Source: Candidatus Tumulicola sp. (lineage in GTDB: Bacteria; Vulcanimicrobiota; Vulcanimicrobiia; Vulcanimicrobiales; Vulcanimicrobiaceae). From it: a stretch of 64,000 bases of DNA. The first letter of the stretch is position 1. Every line of letters begins with the position of its first letter. Of the stretch, positions 16,718 through 23,745 are shown piece after piece. The position numbers and the translations under genes were made by a program. Below the pieces are notes generated by a model. It did no database searches. It was given only the letters and a program-made list of their open reading frames with translations, and was not told where the DNA came from. The DNA lies in the NCBI GenBank assembly GCA_036490475.1, contig DASXDT010000006.1, forward strand, positions 1,674,001 through 1,738,000, in the 5' to 3' direction.

Positions 16718-17144
16718 TCGCCTCTCCGTAGCCGGCTGCGGTCGATATCTTGGATACGTCGATCAGCGCCGGCAGGTCCGACGACGCATCGAACTGATAG
16801 TCGCCGTCGAGTTCCAGCCCGCGTATGCGAACGAGTTGTTCGATGTCGTCGAGATCGAGCGCTATCCGCAGTTCTCCAAATCGAAGCCGGAGACGCAACG
16901 GCCGTTCCAGGCGAATCACCTTGACGCCGGTGCGTTTGCCAAGCACGGCGTTAACGCGCTTGGCTCCCGTCACCAAATAGTCGAAGAACGCTCGCAGCGA
17001 TTCTTCGGCGTCCTCGGGGCGCCGCGGAGGGGCGCCCTGCGACTCGGCCGCGGCGCGCTCGACCTCGCGTTGCGCGCGGATTTTGGTTGCCGCCGCGACG
17101 ATCGGATTCATTGCGGTAAACTCGGGCTTCATCGGGTCGGACAT
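16593..17144 (-). CDS. Hypothetical protein overlapping nth tail-to-tail
   Basis: A 183-residue soluble protein I do not recognise. ATG at 17144 begins MSDPMKPEFTAMNPIVAAATKI. A charged, Ala/Glu-rich helical stretch follows (residues about 18-50), then FFDYLVTGAKRVNAVLGKRTGV and a basic/hydrophobic alternation VIRLERPLRLRLRFGELRIALDLDDI that looks like beta-strands. No signal or membrane segment is seen. Its last 125 nt overlap the 3' end of nth on the other strand. Such a long convergent overlap means either this ORF or the nth tail may be shorter in reality. Confidence reflects the coherent composition and a plausible start, not homology. Confidence 0.55.
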   Translation of the reverse strand: MSDPMKPEFTAMNPIVAAATKIRAQREVERAAAESQGAPPRRPEDAEESLRAFFDYLVTGAKRVNAVLGKRTGVKVIRLERPLRLRLRFGELRIALDLDDIEQLVRIRGLELDGDYQFDASSDLPALIDVSKISTAAGYGEAITPSSLLRRIAKDAELPTPSHLLSPGPLQFSLESPESDTSD

Positions 17145-17193
17145 GTCTGCCAGTCTTTTCGGCGCGGGCCGGCTTTGGGCTTTGTAAACCGTC

Positions 17194-18558
17194 TTAGTAG
17201 TCTTCCTCGTCGGATGCCGGGCCGAAGGACGGCACAAATGGCGGCGCCTTGATGACCTTAAAACGACGCGGTGACTGGTGGAAGTCGAAGAAATCGTCGA
17301 GACCGTGCGACGTCGCGTCGGTCGTGCCGAGCGATCCGGCGTGGAACGTTTCTTCGGTGAACTTCAAGATGCTGCCGAACTCGTAATGTTGATGTGAAAC
17401 GTAGCCTTTCTTGGAATACGGGGAGATGACGACCAGCGGCACGCGAAAACCCAGTTCGTAGTTGTTACGAACGACCGGCGCCACATGATCGTACCAGCCA
17501 CCCCAGTCGTCCCACGTGAGGATAATCGCCGTGTTGTTCCAATACGAGCTCGTCCCAACCGCGTTGACGACCGCCGCCACCCACGATGGGCCGGCGGCCG
17601 ATTTCGTGCCGGAGTGATCGCTGTGCAGCGCGTCGGGCATCACCCACGCTACGCCGGCTAGCCGGCCGTTTTTGATGTCGGTAAGAATTTGCTGCGAAGG
17701 CTTGATCACATAACGGTAGTCCTTGCCGTAACGGATGTGCCGGATCGCATCGTAGGCCTTCCATAACCCTTGACCCAGGGTATGCTGGTAGTATCGCCAC
17801 GATACCCCGTTGGAATCGAGCAGATCGGCCAACACCGGTCGCTCGAAGCAGGGAAACACGCGGTCGCCTTCGGGCGAACCTAGCGGTTCCAGCGCAATGG
17901 TTTCTACACGTACCGACGCTTGGCTGTCGCAGCCGCCGTGCGCTCCAAAGAGCCCGTGACCGATGCCGTTCTCGGCAACCTGCCGATCGGGATAGCGCGG
18001 TGCGGCCGATGCGTCTCCGCTGATGATTTCCTGATGGGCGGGAAAGCTCGGGCCCTGATTGGTTTGGAACATCCTATCGCCGAAGCCGTACTGCGTCGCC
18101 ATGTCGAAGTAGGGTTGCGCTTCGGTGCGCGGGACGTAGGCGTAGGCGCAGTCGGCGCTTATCTTGCACGATGGCGAGTTGGTTTGGATCAAGTCGAACC
18201 CGTCCATCCGGCATGTCGTAAGCTGGGATGGCGCGGCGTTGCAACTTTGCGTGAAGGCTAGATGCCGATGGTTGAGGTCATACTTCCATGCCAGCGAGGT
18301 CTCATGGAGCGGTACCGTTTGGCCCTTGGAGTTGAGACCACTCGAAACGGTGTCGGCACCCGGAAGTCCGTGAAACAGGTTGTCGGGTGTGCGGTTTTCT
18401 TGAAAGATAATGACGACATGTTGGATCGGTGAGATTGCGCGCAAAACGGCCTGGCGATCCACCGCGGCCGTAGTGGGGATGGCCTCGTGCTGGGCCCCGC
18501 ACCCGGTAACGCAACAGCTAACGGCGATGAATGCGAACACGAGCGTAAATCGTTGCAA
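17194..18558 (-). CDS. Phosphoesterase-family lipoprotein (phospholipase C / acid phosphatase type)
   Basis: Predicted exported phosphoric-ester hydrolase of the phospholipase C/AcpA-like phosphoesterase family (PF04185 type); 454 residues. TTG at 18558 has AAGGAG upstream and gives a lipoprotein signal ending VTGC (Cys20). The family's metal/active-site motifs are present: VVIIFQENRTPDNLFHG, FPAHQEIISG, HSDHSG, and WDDWGGWYDHV. The protein probably faces the periplasm or cell surface and may release phosphate from phospholipids or other esters. It is paralogous to the gene at 19250-20683, which points the other way, with the remnant of a third copy between them. Substrate is not predictable. 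Confidence 0.88.
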   Translation of the reverse strand: MQRFTLVFAFIAVSCCVTGCGAQHEAIPTTAAVDRQAVLRAISPIQHVVIIFQENRTPDNLFHGLPGADTVSSGLNSKGQTVPLHETSLAWKYDLNHRHLAFTQSCNAAPSQLTTCRMDGFDLIQTNSPSCKISADCAYAYVPRTEAQPYFDMATQYGFGDRMFQTNQGPSFPAHQEIISGDASAAPRYPDRQVAENGIGHGLFGAHGGCDSQASVRVETIALEPLGSPEGDRVFPCFERPVLADLLDSNGVSWRYYQHTLGQGLWKAYDAIRHIRYGKDYRYVIKPSQQILTDIKNGRLAGVAWVMPDALHSDHSGTKSAAGPSWVAAVVNAVGTSSYWNNTAIILTWDDWGGWYDHVAPVVRNNYELGFRVPLVVISPYSKKGYVSHQHYEFGSILKFTEETFHAGSLGTTDATSHGLDDFFDFHQSPRRFKVIKAPPFVPSFGPASDEEDY

Positions 18559-18711
18559 AGTATGGTCTCCTTACGCAACACGGACCTTGCCAATGTGTTT
18601 GAGCCAGTTTGTTTTAGCAACTAGCTCGAATTGATATTGGAAAGACAAGCCGCCATTTCCCGTTCGAATACTGCGGGCGAGCGGTAATCCAGTCCTAAAT
18701 GGCTAATATAA

Positions 18712-19045
18712 TCAACTCTTAATAAAACAACGCATGCCGCACCCGACTTCGACGCGTTTATTCCATTAGCGTTTGCCACGTCGATCGTTTCTTGTTCCGG
18801 CTAACGGCAGAGTTGCGTGCAGGACGAGTTCGTCAGCCGATAGCGTTCGCCGAAGAGACGTTCGGCATTCGCAAAGGTTCGCTGAACGCCACCGACGTGC
18901 GTGCTAATGATCTGTCGTATGCGCTTGACTTCACCCAGACGCCGCGACCGTTCGTACAGATCGGCTCTCCGAAGTTTAGCCCCGCCTGGCCTGCGCTTTA
19001 TTCGATGGTACGATATCGGAAGATGCCGACGGCGGTAGATTAACT
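18712..19045 (+). pseudogene. Collapsed copy of the phosphoesterase gene (head joined to tail)
   Basis: This stretch aligns by eye with the gene at 19250-20683 in two pieces. Bases about 18712-18818 match its leader and signal-peptide region, including a shared GATCGTTTCTTGTTC. Bases about 18818-19045 match its last roughly 290 nt: the translated piece FAEETFGIRKGSL, DVRANDLSYALDFTQTPRPF closely follows the functional protein. About 1.1 kb of the middle is missing. The start codon region is lost and the signal part has a TAA where the intact gene has CAA. It is therefore a deletion remnant of a duplicated gene and should make no product. Confidence 0.75.
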
Positions 19046-19249
19046 GCAGGACTGTTCATAACACGGGCGAGCGCGCCAACGGCGATGATGCGACAGGCTC
19101 CAAAAGTAACCTAAGTTAACTTTATTAGCCATCACGGCAGGCGAGCGTGCGCGTGCCAGTACCGTTTCGTAAGATTAATGCGCGAAGGTTTTGTAACGAA
19201 TGCGCTCAAGTCTACGCAACACAACGTGCGCCGCGCTCGAGGGTCGACA

Positions 19250-20683
19250 ATGAAGTACATTGCGTTTTTTCCATTGGCGTTAGCCATATTGATCGTTTCT
19301 TGTTCGGGTCAACAGCAGAGTGCGGCCATCCCGCAAAGTGCGTCGATGAGTCTACCCGGCAAGAAGCAAGATCCGTCGAACTACATCCAGCACGTCGTCG
19401 TCATCTTCCAGGAGAATCGCACGCCGGACGATTTGTTCCAAGCGCTGGCTTCGGAAGGCGCCAACATCCAGTCGTGGGGTATGCTCGGTAACCAGCGCGT
19501 CAATTTGAAGCAGGCATCGCTGGCGACCCGCTACGGCCTGGGCCACGGGCACAAATCGTTCGTGTTGGATTATGATTGTGGTGCGAACGACGGTTTCGCG
19601 TCGGGCATACCTAAAGAATTTCAGCTGCGTCCATATTCATTCGCACCGTTGAGTGAAGTGCAGCCGTACGACGACATGGCCACGCAATACGTGTTCGGCG
19701 ACGACATGTTTCAGACGCAGCAAGCCGGCAGCTTTCCGGCGCATCAATATATCGTGAGTGGGTCGGGCGCAGCGCTGCCTGAGACGACGTTCGACATGTC
19801 CAGCGACCCCTTCGACAGCAAGACCGGCATGAAGACGGAAGCCGGTTGCGACGGCCCGCCGACCGAAGCGATCGACACGATCAATCCGAACAACGGCCAA
19901 CCCGGACCCACGCCGCGCCCGTGCTTTAACCGGCCGGTACTCACCGATCTGCTCGATTTTCACGGCGTAACGTGGCGCTACTACCAGAACGGCACGGGAC
20001 CGGGCTTGTGGCACGCCTTCGACGCGATCCGTCACGTGCGATACGGTCCGGATTATGCCAACGTGGTCACGCCGCCGGCGACCATCATCTCGGACATCGC
20101 GACCGGTGCGCTGCCCGGAATGTCGTGGGTCATGCCTGCCGACAGCAAACACTCGGACCATCCGGGTAACCGTAGCAACGAAGGCCCTTCGTGGGTTGCG
20201 GCCGTCGTCAATGCGATTGGGGCTAGCCAATACTGGAACAGCACCGCGATCGTCATTACGTGGGACGAGTGGGGCGGTTTTTACGATCACGTCCCTCCGC
20301 CGATGGAGAACAACTACATGGAGTTGGGATTCCGGGTTCCACTGATCGTCATCTCCCCGTACGCCAAACAAGGCTACGTCTCGCACGTGCAGTACGAGTT
20401 CGGCAGCATTATCGCGTTCGCCGAAGAGACGTTTGGAATACCCAAGGGTTCGCTCAGAGCGACCGACGTGCGCGCCAACGATTTGTCGGACGCGTTTGAC
20501 TTCACCCAGGCGCCGCGCCCGTTCGTGCCGATTAACGCTCCGCCGTTCGTCCCCGAAACCGGACCGGCGTCGTTATCCGACGGAACGATCTCCGAAGATC
20601 CCGACGAGGATCCGGTCGGTAACGTTCATCCCGACTGTATGACCGTTCGCAAGACGGGCGTCGCTCGCACCGCCTTGCGTTAA
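19250..20683 (+). CDS. Phosphoesterase-family lipoprotein (phospholipase C / acid phosphatase type)
   Basis: Second member of the same exported phosphoesterase family, 477 residues. The start at 19250 has GAGGG 7 nt upstream and yields a lipoprotein signal MKYIAFFPLALAILIVSC. Motifs parallel the paralogue: VVVIFQENRTPDDLFQ, FPAHQYIVSG, KHSDHPGNRS, and WDEWGGFYDHVPPP. Compared with the other copy it has longer insertions around residue 190 and an acidic C-terminus (ISEDPDEDPVG). It stands alone on the plus strand between its remnant and the convergent acyl-CoA dehydrogenase gene. Substrate unknown; phosphate scavenging or phospholipid hydrolysis is the family theme. Confidence 0.88.
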   Translation: MKYIAFFPLALAILIVSCSGQQQSAAIPQSASMSLPGKKQDPSNYIQHVVVIFQENRTPDDLFQALASEGANIQSWGMLGNQRVNLKQASLATRYGLGHGHKSFVLDYDCGANDGFASGIPKEFQLRPYSFAPLSEVQPYDDMATQYVFGDDMFQTQQAGSFPAHQYIVSGSGAALPETTFDMSSDPFDSKTGMKTEAGCDGPPTEAIDTINPNNGQPGPTPRPCFNRPVLTDLLDFHGVTWRYYQNGTGPGLWHAFDAIRHVRYGPDYANVVTPPATIISDIATGALPGMSWVMPADSKHSDHPGNRSNEGPSWVAAVVNAIGASQYWNSTAIVITWDEWGGFYDHVPPPMENNYMELGFRVPLIVISPYAKQGYVSHVQYEFGSIIAFAEETFGIPKGSLRATDVRANDLSDAFDFTQAPRPFVPINAPPFVPETGPASLSDGTISEDPDEDPVGNVHPDCMTVRKTGVARTALR

Positions 20684-20700
20684 GGCTTCGCGAGGCTGGA

Positions 20701-20742
20701 GCGCGCGCTCGTTACGGCTTGGCTTTGCCGACGAGCGCGCGT
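20701..20742. terminator. Inverted repeat at the convergent phosphoesterase / acyl-CoA dehydrogenase ends
   Basis: GCGCGCGCTCGT (20701-20712) is followed 18 nt later by ACGAGCGCGCGT (20731-20742), giving an 11-bp GC stem. It begins 17 nt past the phosphoesterase stop and overlaps the last codons of the acyl-CoA dehydrogenase gene on the other strand. There is no T-tract; a terminator role is inferred from position only. Confidence 0.4.
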
Positions 20743-21884
20743 GAAATGACGAGACGCTGAATCTGCTGGGTTCCTTCGTAGATCTGCGTGATCTTGGCGT
20801 CGCGCATCATACGCTCGACCGGATATTCGGTAGAGTATCCGAACCCGCCGAGAACTTGCACCGCATCGGTCGTCACCGACATCGCGACGTCTCCGCACTT
20901 GAGTTTGGCCATAGCGGCCCATAACGTGACGTCGGGGGCGCCCGCGTCGCACTTGCGCGCCGCTTCGTACAGCATCATTCGCGCGGCTTCCACTTCGGTT
21001 TTCATGTCGGCCAACATGAAGCCGACGCCTTGGTGTTGGCCGATCGGTTTACCGAAAGCGATGCGTTCTTTGGCATAGTTGGTGGCGTAATCCAGTGCGC
21101 CGGCGGCGATGCCGAGCGCTTGTGCGGCAATTCCGGGTCGTGACTTATCGAGAACACGCATTGCGATTTTAAAACCTTCGCCCTCCTCGCCGAGCCGGTT
21201 TTCGGCGGGAATCTCGCAGCCGTCGAACGACAGCTCGACGGTAGGTGACCCGCGAATCCCCATTTTCTTTTCTTTCTTTCCAACCGAGAAACCGGGCGCG
21301 TCTTTCTCGACGACGAACGCGCTAACGCCGCGCGAACCGGCCTGCGGATCGGTGACGGCAAACACGCACACGACGTCGGCCACGCTTCCGTTGGTGATCC
21401 AGATTTTTTGACCGTCTAAAACGTATGTATCGCCGCGGCGTTCGGCGCGCGTGCGCATCGACCCGAGCGCGTCGGAACCGCTGGACACCTCGGTCAGCGC
21501 ATAGGCCGCGATATGTTCGCCGGATGCGATGCGTGGAAGGAAACGGCGCTTCTGTTTCTCATCGCCGGCGATCATGATCGGGAGCATGCCGAGCTCCTGC
21601 ACGGCGACGATGAGCGAACTCGAGGCGCACGCTTTCGCGATCTCTTCGACGACTTTCACGTAGGTAAGAAACGTTCCGCCGAGGCCACCGTACTCGCTCG
21701 GAATCGGAATGCCGAGCAAATCGTTTTCGGCGAAAAGTTGTTTGATGTCCCACGGAAATTCGCCGGTTTCGTCGATTTCGGCCGCTCGCGGCGCAACTTT
21801 TTCGTTTACGAGCTCGCGCACCGCCTCGACGATCATGCGTTCTTCGTCGTTGCTTGCGCCGGTCGATACGGTGGTCGTCGTCAT
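20712..21884 (-). CDS. Acyl-CoA dehydrogenase
   Basis: FAD enzyme for alpha,beta-dehydrogenation of acyl-CoA, 390 residues, typical of the short/medium/branched-chain class. ATG at 21884 has GAGGAG upstream; the open frame continues further upstream but is only antisense to the CoA-transferase gene. Seen are AYALTEVSSGSDALG and QKIWITNGSVADV (FAD binding), KMGIRGSPTVELSFDG, and the C-terminal MRDAKITQIYEGTQQIQR with the catalytic-base Glu in the YEGT position of this class. It is divergent from the scoA/scoB pair, so both units may serve fatty or branched-chain acyl-CoA breakdown. Chain-length specificity is not evident. Confidence 0.94.
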   Translation of the reverse strand: MTTTTVSTGASNDEERMIVEAVRELVNEKVAPRAAEIDETGEFPWDIKQLFAENDLLGIPIPSEYGGLGGTFLTYVKVVEEIAKACASSSLIVAVQELGMLPIMIAGDEKQKRRFLPRIASGEHIAAYALTEVSSGSDALGSMRTRAERRGDTYVLDGQKIWITNGSVADVVCVFAVTDPQAGSRGVSAFVVEKDAPGFSVGKKEKKMGIRGSPTVELSFDGCEIPAENRLGEEGEGFKIAMRVLDKSRPGIAAQALGIAAGALDYATNYAKERIAFGKPIGQHQGVGFMLADMKTEVEAARMMLYEAARKCDAGAPDVTLWAAMAKLKCGDVAMSVTTDAVQVLGGFGYSTEYPVERMMRDAKITQIYEGTQQIQRLVISRALVGKAKP

Positions 21885-21977
21885 GTGTTTCTCCTCGATA
21901 CGAACATGGCCGAGCTTCGCGACGGACGCCGCCGCGCCTTGGCAGGACGCGGGCGGCTCCTCACGCATAAGCCGGGC

Positions 21978-22736
21978 ATGGAGAAAGTGTACGCCTCCTG
22001 CACCGATGCGGTCGCCGACATTCCCGACGGCGCGACGCTGGCGGTGGGTGGATTCGGGCTCAACGGTATCCCGCACAATCTCATCGAGGCGCTCTTCGAA
22101 CAGGGCGCAACCAGCCTGGTAACGGTGTCGAATAATTGCGGCGTCGACGGCTGGGGTTTGGGCGTTTTGTTGGATCACAAACGTATCGTGCGCACCACCG
22201 GCTCGTACGTCGGCGAAAACCGCGAGTTCGAGCGGCAATACTTGAGCGGCGAACTCGAAGTCGAATTGTGCCCGCAGGGCACGCTGGCCGAACGCTTGCG
22301 CGCCGGCGGTTGCGGCATACCGGCTTTTTATACGCCGGCTGGGGACGGTACGATGATTGCCGACGGTGGCCTTCCATGGCGCTATGCGTCCGACGGCAGC
22401 GTCGCGATCGCATCGCCCAAAAAGGAAACGCGCGTTTTTAACGGGCGAGAGTACGTGCTCGAGGCCGGCATCGTTTGCGACTTTGCGTTGGTGCGGGCGT
22501 CGGTCGGCGACCGTGCCGGCAATTTGATTTTTAATCAGGCGACGCGCAATTTCAACCCGTTGTGCGCGATGGCCGGCCGCATCACGATCGCCGAAGTGGA
22601 AGAGTTGGTCGAGCCGGGCCGGATCGATCCGCAAGACGTGCACCTGCCGGGTATTTTCGTTCAGCGCATCGTGCGCGTCGGGCCGCAAGGAAAGCGCATC
22701 GAACGCGTTACCACGCGTAAGCGCGGGGAGGCATAG
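21978..22736 (+). CDS. scoA: 3-oxoacid CoA-transferase subunit A
   Basis: Alpha subunit of a succinyl-CoA:3-ketoacid (or acetate/acetoacetate) CoA-transferase; 252 residues. It begins at ATG 21978 and shows the family glycine-rich segment [31 protein letters not shown], the C-terminal-half block [18 protein letters not shown], and [20 protein letters not shown]. The stop is 2 nt from the start of subunit B, so the two are translated together. With the divergent acyl-CoA dehydrogenase it suggests ketone-body or short-chain acid activation. Whether succinyl-CoA or acetyl-CoA is the donor cannot be told. Confidence 0.93.
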
Positions 22737-22738
22737 TC

Positions 22739-23410
22739 GTGGCCCTAACTCGCTCGCAGCTAGCCGCGCGTGTCGCCGCCGAACTCCGCGACGGACAGTA
22801 CGTGAACCTTGGAATCGGACTTCCGACGCTCGTGCCGAACTTCGTCGCTCCCGACGTCACCGTTACGCTGCAGAGCGAGAACGGCATTCTTGGCATGGGA
22901 GCATATCCGTACGAAGGCGAGGAGAACCCGGACCTCATAAACGCCGGCAAAGAAACGGTGACGGTGCAGCCGGGTGCGTCGTTCTTCGACTCGTCGCTTT
23001 CGTTTGGAATGATTCGCGGCGGACACATCGATCTCGCAGTGTTGGGTGCGATGCAAGTTTCCGAGCATGGCGATCTGGCGAATTGGATGATTCCCGGAAA
23101 GATGGTCAAGGGAATGGGCGGCGCGATGGATTTGGTGCACGGCGCCAAACGCGTGATCGTGATGATGGAGCACGTTGCCAAGGGCAACTCGCATAAGATC
23201 GTTCGAACCTGTTCGCTGCCCTTGACGGGGCGGAGGGTGGTGCACCGGCTGATCACCGACTTGGCGACGATCGACGTGACGCCCGAAGGGCTGGTATTGC
23301 GCGAACTCGCGCCGGGGGTTTCGATCGACGACGTGCGGCGCGCCAGCGAGCCGGAACTGTTGGTACCGGTCGCCCCGGCCGTGATGGACGTTCCGGCCGC
23401 TACGGATTAA
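22739..23410 (+). CDS. scoB: 3-oxoacid CoA-transferase subunit B
   Basis: Beta subunit carrying the catalytic glutamate that forms the CoA-thioester intermediate; 223 residues. The motif [13 protein letters not shown] holds that Glu (SENG), preceded by [11 protein letters not shown], the other conserved block. [17 protein letters not shown] and the C-terminal half ([21 protein letters not shown]) complete the family pattern. GTG start 2 nt after the subunit A stop. It has no fused partner; it forms the enzyme with ScoA. Confidence 0.93.
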
Positions 23411-23496
23411 CTCTCGCTGAAGAAACGGGAACATTGGTAATACGGTTCAAAAAAAGTGGTAAAGTCCGTACAACGCAACTTCAACGAGGAGACACC

Positions 23497-23745
23497 ATGC
23501 AACTCAAATCACGTTCGGGCCTTCTGGCGTTCGCGCTGGCCCTGATTCTCGGTATCGTCATTGGCGGCACCGCCGTCGCGGCTACCCAGGTACACATGCG
23601 AAACGCCCTCACCGATCTAGAATCGGCGGCAACGCAACTCCAGACCGCAACCGCCGATAAGGCCGGCCACCGCCAGCAAGCAATCAGCCTCGTCAGCCAG
23701 GCCATTCACCAGGTGAATATGGGAATCGCCGCCGGAGCGTACTAA
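23497..23745 (+). CDS. Small exported or membrane-anchored helical protein
   Basis: An 82-residue protein with a strong GAGGAG ribosome site. The N-terminus is a signal peptide or anchor (GLLAFALALILGIVIGGTAVAA). The remaining 50 residues are a hydrophilic helix rich in Ala, Gln, Thr and His (ALTDLESAATQLQTATADKA, then QQAISLVSQAIHQVNMG), probably coiled-coil or helical-hairpin forming. No Cys or catalytic motif. I do not recognise a named family. It sits alone behind its own short leader after scoB and is tail-to-tail with the ABC exporter gene, sharing the 4 nt CTAA across both stops. Possibly a small periplasmic or envelope accessory protein. Confidence 0.75.
   Translation: MQLKSRSGLLAFALALILGIVIGGTAVAATQVHMRNALTDLESAATQLQTATADKAGHRQQAISLVSQAIHQVNMGIAAGAY

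Follow-up and report, generated by a model that had tools for sequence, protein, structure and literature searches.

The stretch at 18712-19069 of the window (the whole 64-kb stretch of DNA analysed, whose coordinates are used throughout for positions given without a contig name) is very probably a non-functional pseudogene of the adjacent phosphoesterase gene at 19250, formed by a local duplication after the lineage parted from a same-genus relative and by a subsequent internal deletion. It consists of two collinear pieces, on the same strand as the gene, that match the gene's two ends. In bacterial gene families, pseudogenes that arise by duplication take the form of a copy beside an intact relative, with its start lost, a premature stop and an internal deletion. 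The stump, as we call it here, resembles these in its lost start, premature stop and internal deletion, in its apparent neutral drift and in the intact relative alongside, and shows no difference in kind, except that it sits within an unusually large family. The stump by itself is an ordinary dead duplicate, and the surrounding family is the more interesting subject; the value of the stump is as a polarised example of loss within a family that fills a remarkable share of these genomes.

Structure of the stump and its intact neighbor

Coordinates are collected in Table 1. The start codon of the intact gene was chosen by its signal peptide, in a frame that opens at 19178, and by eye the protein begins with what resembles the signal peptide of a lipoprotein. 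It matches the whole PF04185 profile (1-356), and its 171.8 bits exceed the cut-off of 23. By sequence it resembles the acid phosphatase PDB 2d1g (7e-18) and the phospholipase C PDB 9gy2 (1.5e-20), and its sequence relatives also include the phospholipase C entries PDB 8yk5 and 8k3g. For this putative phosphoesterase the NCBIfam scores lie far under the cut-offs: it reaches 110.1 of 362.75 bits for TIGR03397 (acid phosphatase) and 109.5 of 580.25 bits for TIGR03396 (phosphocholine-specific phospholipase C). A second, divergent family member lies on the minus strand on the other side of the stump; it is 52% identical to the gene at 19250 and is not the stump's nearest relative.

Table 1. Coordinates of the stump, the flanking genes and the inverted repeat; gene positions are those of the intact gene at 19250
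Feature	Coordinates	Strand	Match or content	Support
Second, divergent phosphoesterase gene	17194-18558	-	PF04185, 454 aa	Pfam E 4.3e-51
Inverted repeat partners	18699-18717 and 19114-19132	- and +	AGTTRAYTWTATTAGCCAT	16 of 19 positions matched
Stump, leader part	18712-18753	+	aligns with leader of intact gene, 19206-19248	
Stump, 5' piece	18754-18813	+	signal-peptide DNA, 19262-19321	blastn 50/60 identical, 83%, E 2e-14
Stump, deletion junction	18814-18815	+	stands for 1064 bp, gene 19322-20385 (alignment coordinates)	
Stump, 3' piece	18816-19031	+	20386-20606	blastn 172/221 columns identical, 78%, E 8e-46
Stump, tail part	19043-19069	+	27 nt, 20634-20660, near stop of gene	2/1000 shuffles equally good
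Intact phosphoesterase gene, predicted exported	19250-20683	+	PF04185, 477 aa	Pfam E 2.9e-50

The initial annotation had the leader and signal-peptide DNA of the intact gene reappearing at 18712-19045, joined directly to DNA matching its last about 290 bp, with roughly 1.1 kb of the middle gone. Pairwise alignment by blastn (query 18700-19060 against 19101-20800) bears this out: both main pieces have significant identity to the gene, the distance from 20386 to the stop codon is 298 bp, and the missing middle has the length given in Table 1. The extent holds for the pieces, and the match runs slightly further, to 19069. The leader part is the weaker component, with a local alignment score of 27 that was equalled in 18 of 1000 shuffles; comparing the DNA that precedes each of the two flanking genes gave the same score, equalled in 28 of 1000 shuffles. 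Weak by itself, the leader match counts mainly through its collinearity with the 5' piece, from which it is separated by the point where 13 nt of the gene, start codon included, have no counterpart in the stump.

When the whole genome was searched at the DNA level with 18700-19060, four places were found: the stump itself, its two pieces in the neighboring gene, and one paralogue (72% over 140 nt, E 3e-13). The best genome match of the stump, itself excepted, is thus the adjacent gene.

The C-terminus of the intact protein, encoded at 20606-20683, extends about 25 residues beyond the ends of both the minus-strand neighbor and the gene that occupies this locus in G001, the same-genus relative; this extension may stem from read-through of an older stop.

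Origin and age of the duplicate

A tree was built from 75 of 93 aligned rows (66 of them different) and 135 of 147 columns, the 18 other rows having been dropped for a local score below 80; rows from relatives came from loci matched by the 19250 protein (30, some from this genome) and from L055. The stump and the adjacent intact gene came out as sisters (98/77, not starred), on branches of length 0.18 and 0.027, respectively. The next row is another G001 gene, on contig C56 (80/31), followed by the G001 gene at the orthologous place (86/62); on these alignments the branching order beyond the sister pair is weakly resolved.

Of 24 relatives searched with Nth, ten served for a comparison of gene order around the locus, with an E limit of 1e-5 for phosphoesterase matches. 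G001 has at this place Nth, a hypothetical gene, one phosphoesterase (64% identical protein) and acyl-CoA dehydrogenase, and lacks both the stump and the minus-strand gene; the interval between its hypothetical gene and its phosphoesterase is only some 120 bp, which leaves no room for a stump. Eight of the nine further relatives, with stretches reaching acyl-CoA dehydrogenase, gave no phosphoesterase match at that limit; two of the eight (L060 and L061) also gave no match to the hypothetical gene, and some have several kb between Nth and the dehydrogenase. The stretch from the ninth, L064, was too short to judge. Given the sister placement and the single gene at this place in G001, the duplication most likely took place after the two lineages parted.

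The stump might instead be older, both copies having been present in the ancestor of the genus, its counterpart having been lost in the relative, and conversion from the gene at 19250 having kept the stump young-looking. The 3' piece does match the relative's gene too, at 71-74%, the nodes next to the stump in the tree are weakly supported, and an identical stretch at the ends of three contigs (see below) fits local conversion, or merely an assembly branch. Gene conversion could indeed make stump and gene seem younger than their true age. This older origin is improbable, in that the 5' piece is 83% identical to the adjacent gene and finds no match in the relative's gene at E 0.01, and the relative carries just one gene here, with no stump.

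The initial annotation read the arrangement as a tandem duplication followed by internal deletion. That order of events is supported by the sisterhood of stump and gene, by their head-to-tail order with the stump 180 bp upstream, and by the single gene in G001. That the duplication was tandem is what we infer, since shared flanking DNA beyond leader and tail is not demonstrable: no counterpart was detected of 19070-19205 or of the DNA upstream of 18712, and the downstream comparison was equalled by 282 of 1000 shuffles.

The sequence of events that we favor would thus begin with the copying of the gene at 19250 next to itself, after the split from the same-genus relative, as the tree and the relative's single gene suggest. 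An internal deletion would then have removed from the copy the 1064 bp that separate signal peptide from C-terminus, probably as a single event with no long repeats involved, through illegitimate recombination or strand slippage. Without a start codon and with a stop in its signal-peptide frame, the stump is unable to make an enzyme, and it seems to be drifting neutrally while the neighboring gene remains intact.

Loss of coding capacity and the deletion junction

The coding capacity of the stump has been destroyed in three ways: its start codon is without counterpart, its translated signal-peptide frame contains an in-frame TAA at 18802-18804, and the length of the deletion is no multiple of three. 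Compared with PF04185 phosphoesterases it keeps only the two ends.

That the stump nevertheless serves as a functional short gene, or as a regulatory RNA acting on the mRNA of its neighbor, is extremely improbable. There is indeed an 83-codon open frame inside it (18792-19043), but this starts with TTG and had no match in Pfam (18792-19040, at 0.001) or in NCBIfam; changes on the stump branch look neutral by codon position; Rfam gave no match across 17000-23500. A scan of 18500-19300 for promoter and terminator consensus sequences found none for either the stump or the intact gene (shuffle means 0.5 and 1.4) and hence does not discriminate between them.

Short direct repeats were sought at the junction, as the initial annotation had proposed: the longest exact word common within 25 nt of the breaks is the 6-nt GTTCGG, and it lies off the breakpoints. 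Microhomology at the breakpoints themselves, judged from the letters by eye, amounts to at most the 4-nt GTGC, provided that one T was inserted in the stump. With roughly one position in five differing between the copies, any short repeats once present at the junction may have been lost to decay.

Raw differences between stump and gene fall 8/7/17 on the three codon positions (dN 0.16, dS 0.69), an excess at third positions that would suggest a stump that long remained functional. This reading was rejected on polarising the differences over 147 nt with G001 as the sole outgroup, which puts the excess on the side of the intact gene. Changes by codon position were then 7/6/8 on the stump branch, 0/1/6 on that of the intact gene and 5/1/12 on the relative plus stem, with 1/0/3 unresolved. 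On the stump branch 13 of 21 changes fall at positions 1 and 2, no different from two thirds (p 0.65), against 7 of 25 when the two functional lineages are pooled, which does differ from two thirds (p 0.0001). Fisher's test gave p 0.036 for the stump against the pooled functional lineages and p 0.077 against the intact gene alone, with small counts and tested post hoc. The overall rate on the stump branch, 21/147 over all sites, is close to that at the intact gene's third positions, 6/49, as expected for early death of the stump. The simplest reading of these small numbers is that the copy died early and appears to have drifted neutrally since.

The inverted repeat around the stump

The stump is flanked by a 19-nt inverted repeat (Table 1), and no pair as good was found between the two intergenic stretches in any of 60 shuffles. 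With 17 nt of one copy as the pattern and up to 3 mismatches allowed, two matches turned up in none of 100 shuffled versions of the window. By blastn the pair reaches only E 0.9. A degenerate pattern, written from both repeat sites, which consequently match it exactly by construction, was found at one further place in the genome within 3 mismatches, and a control with the reversed pattern found two.

These repeats bear on a different origin of the stump, in which its pieces would be inserted copied fragments, or a small mobile element bounded by the repeats, and no whole-gene duplication took place. We consider this highly improbable. The flanking position of the repeats, their absence in shuffles and the lack of any other genome place for the joint pattern within 2 mismatches would fit such an insertion, but the blastn value is poor, no target-site duplication was seen by eye, and a second copy of the bounded unit was not found in the genome, nor any match in a plasmid collection. 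Moreover, the pieces correspond to both ends of a single gene, keep its order and meet at one junction. Each repeat precedes one of two related genes, at 141 and 118 nt from the gene starts, and both are oriented alike relative to the gene that follows, so that they may be part of the upstream DNA.

The repeat core, TATTAGCC, was sought in the 46 upstream regions compared (from 52 paralogues with frames read, out of 55 matches). It occurs in two of them, both belonging to the window's two genes, and is absent from the other 44; as a family-wide promoter it was accordingly rejected. The commonest upstream 8-mers of the family occur in up to 9 of the 46 regions; in 10 shuffles the top 8-mer reached 5-7 each time. 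Upstream DNA common to the two genes, a regulatory site or chance could each explain the inverted repeat.

The PF04185 family

A profile search of this genome (3.3 Mb) gave 55 PF04185 matches, including a weak one (21.7 bits) and one that is truncated where its contig stops. With the 19250 protein as query (E 0.001, several matches being possible per gene), 64 matches were found in this genome and 107 in G001. All 41 genomes compared, this one included, have a PF04185 match; 35 have 1-17, and the remaining six (G000, which is this genome, with G001, G010, G014, G016 and G021) have at least 37 to 39. Across 118 genomes of the phylum, 90 have a match at 1e-10 and 28 have none; in 18 of the 118 the first look gave at least 34 candidates, as yet unscored. 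The 19250 protein has its nearest named relatives in metagenome genomes of Candidatus Eremiobacterota, and a stretch of G001 (L073) is identical over 3341 bases to PLLA01000091, from isolate palsa_1529; on these grounds the window probably belongs to the same phylum.

The paralogues include tandem groups, for example six copies on C1 at 216569-225177. A block of two phosphoesterase genes is found both at C1:284700-287739 and at C5:362400-366000, 84% identical over about 2.7 kb, and part of it matches C6:701600-703700 (86% over 1454 nt). Three contigs, C1 (287739), C5 (848811) and C6 (1751565), end inside phosphoesterase copies and have an identical 124-nt stretch in common, so that the true family count may differ from 55; the contig-end copies of C1 and C6 are 89% alike over 1251 nt. 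The identical stretch reflects either a repeat at which the assembly branches or a recent conversion event.

Further stumps were sought by tblastn with the 52 paralogues against 36 stretches totalling 199,725 bases, made up of the window and stretches around paralogues. Four stretches outside the frames read were found, and the one decayed fragment among them is the stump described here. The other three are an intact paralogue (C5:139690), a copy truncated at the end of its contig, and a weakly matching segment (30%) within a 763-codon frame. Elsewhere the genome was covered only by the PF04185 profile, the 19250 protein and the stump DNA, a coverage that stumps of distant paralogues would escape.

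The initial annotation saw in the stump a record of copy-number turnover in this exported enzyme family. The large number of family matches, the tandem groups and the two-gene block on two contigs agree with such turnover; only one stump was seen, and turnover is accordingly inferred more from copies than from stumps. A broader and rather doubtful proposal is that several Eremiobacterota genera carry dozens to about a hundred predicted exported phosphoesterases in constant flux, as genes are duplicated locally, copied in blocks, converted and rapidly deleted, the stump being a rare fossil of dead ends that would normally be erased fast. Such a flux would be comparable to that of diversifying surface-protein arrays. 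As to why there should be so many predicted secreted phosphoesterases, scavenging of organic phosphorus is a possibility, offered as a guess. Among the literature matches listed, those for PF04185 expansion concern, judging by their titles, fungi, plants and archaeal elements, and we found no description of such an expansion in Eremiobacterota/WPS-2, which is not proof that none exists, and a term search of the main text of PMC9758169 found no mention of phosphatase, phosphoesterase, phospholipase, paralog or duplication in that part of the paper.

By eye, many of the paralogues end in a short acidic C-terminal tail, for example PVDRE, PPDYE, IPDSE or LDAEDY.
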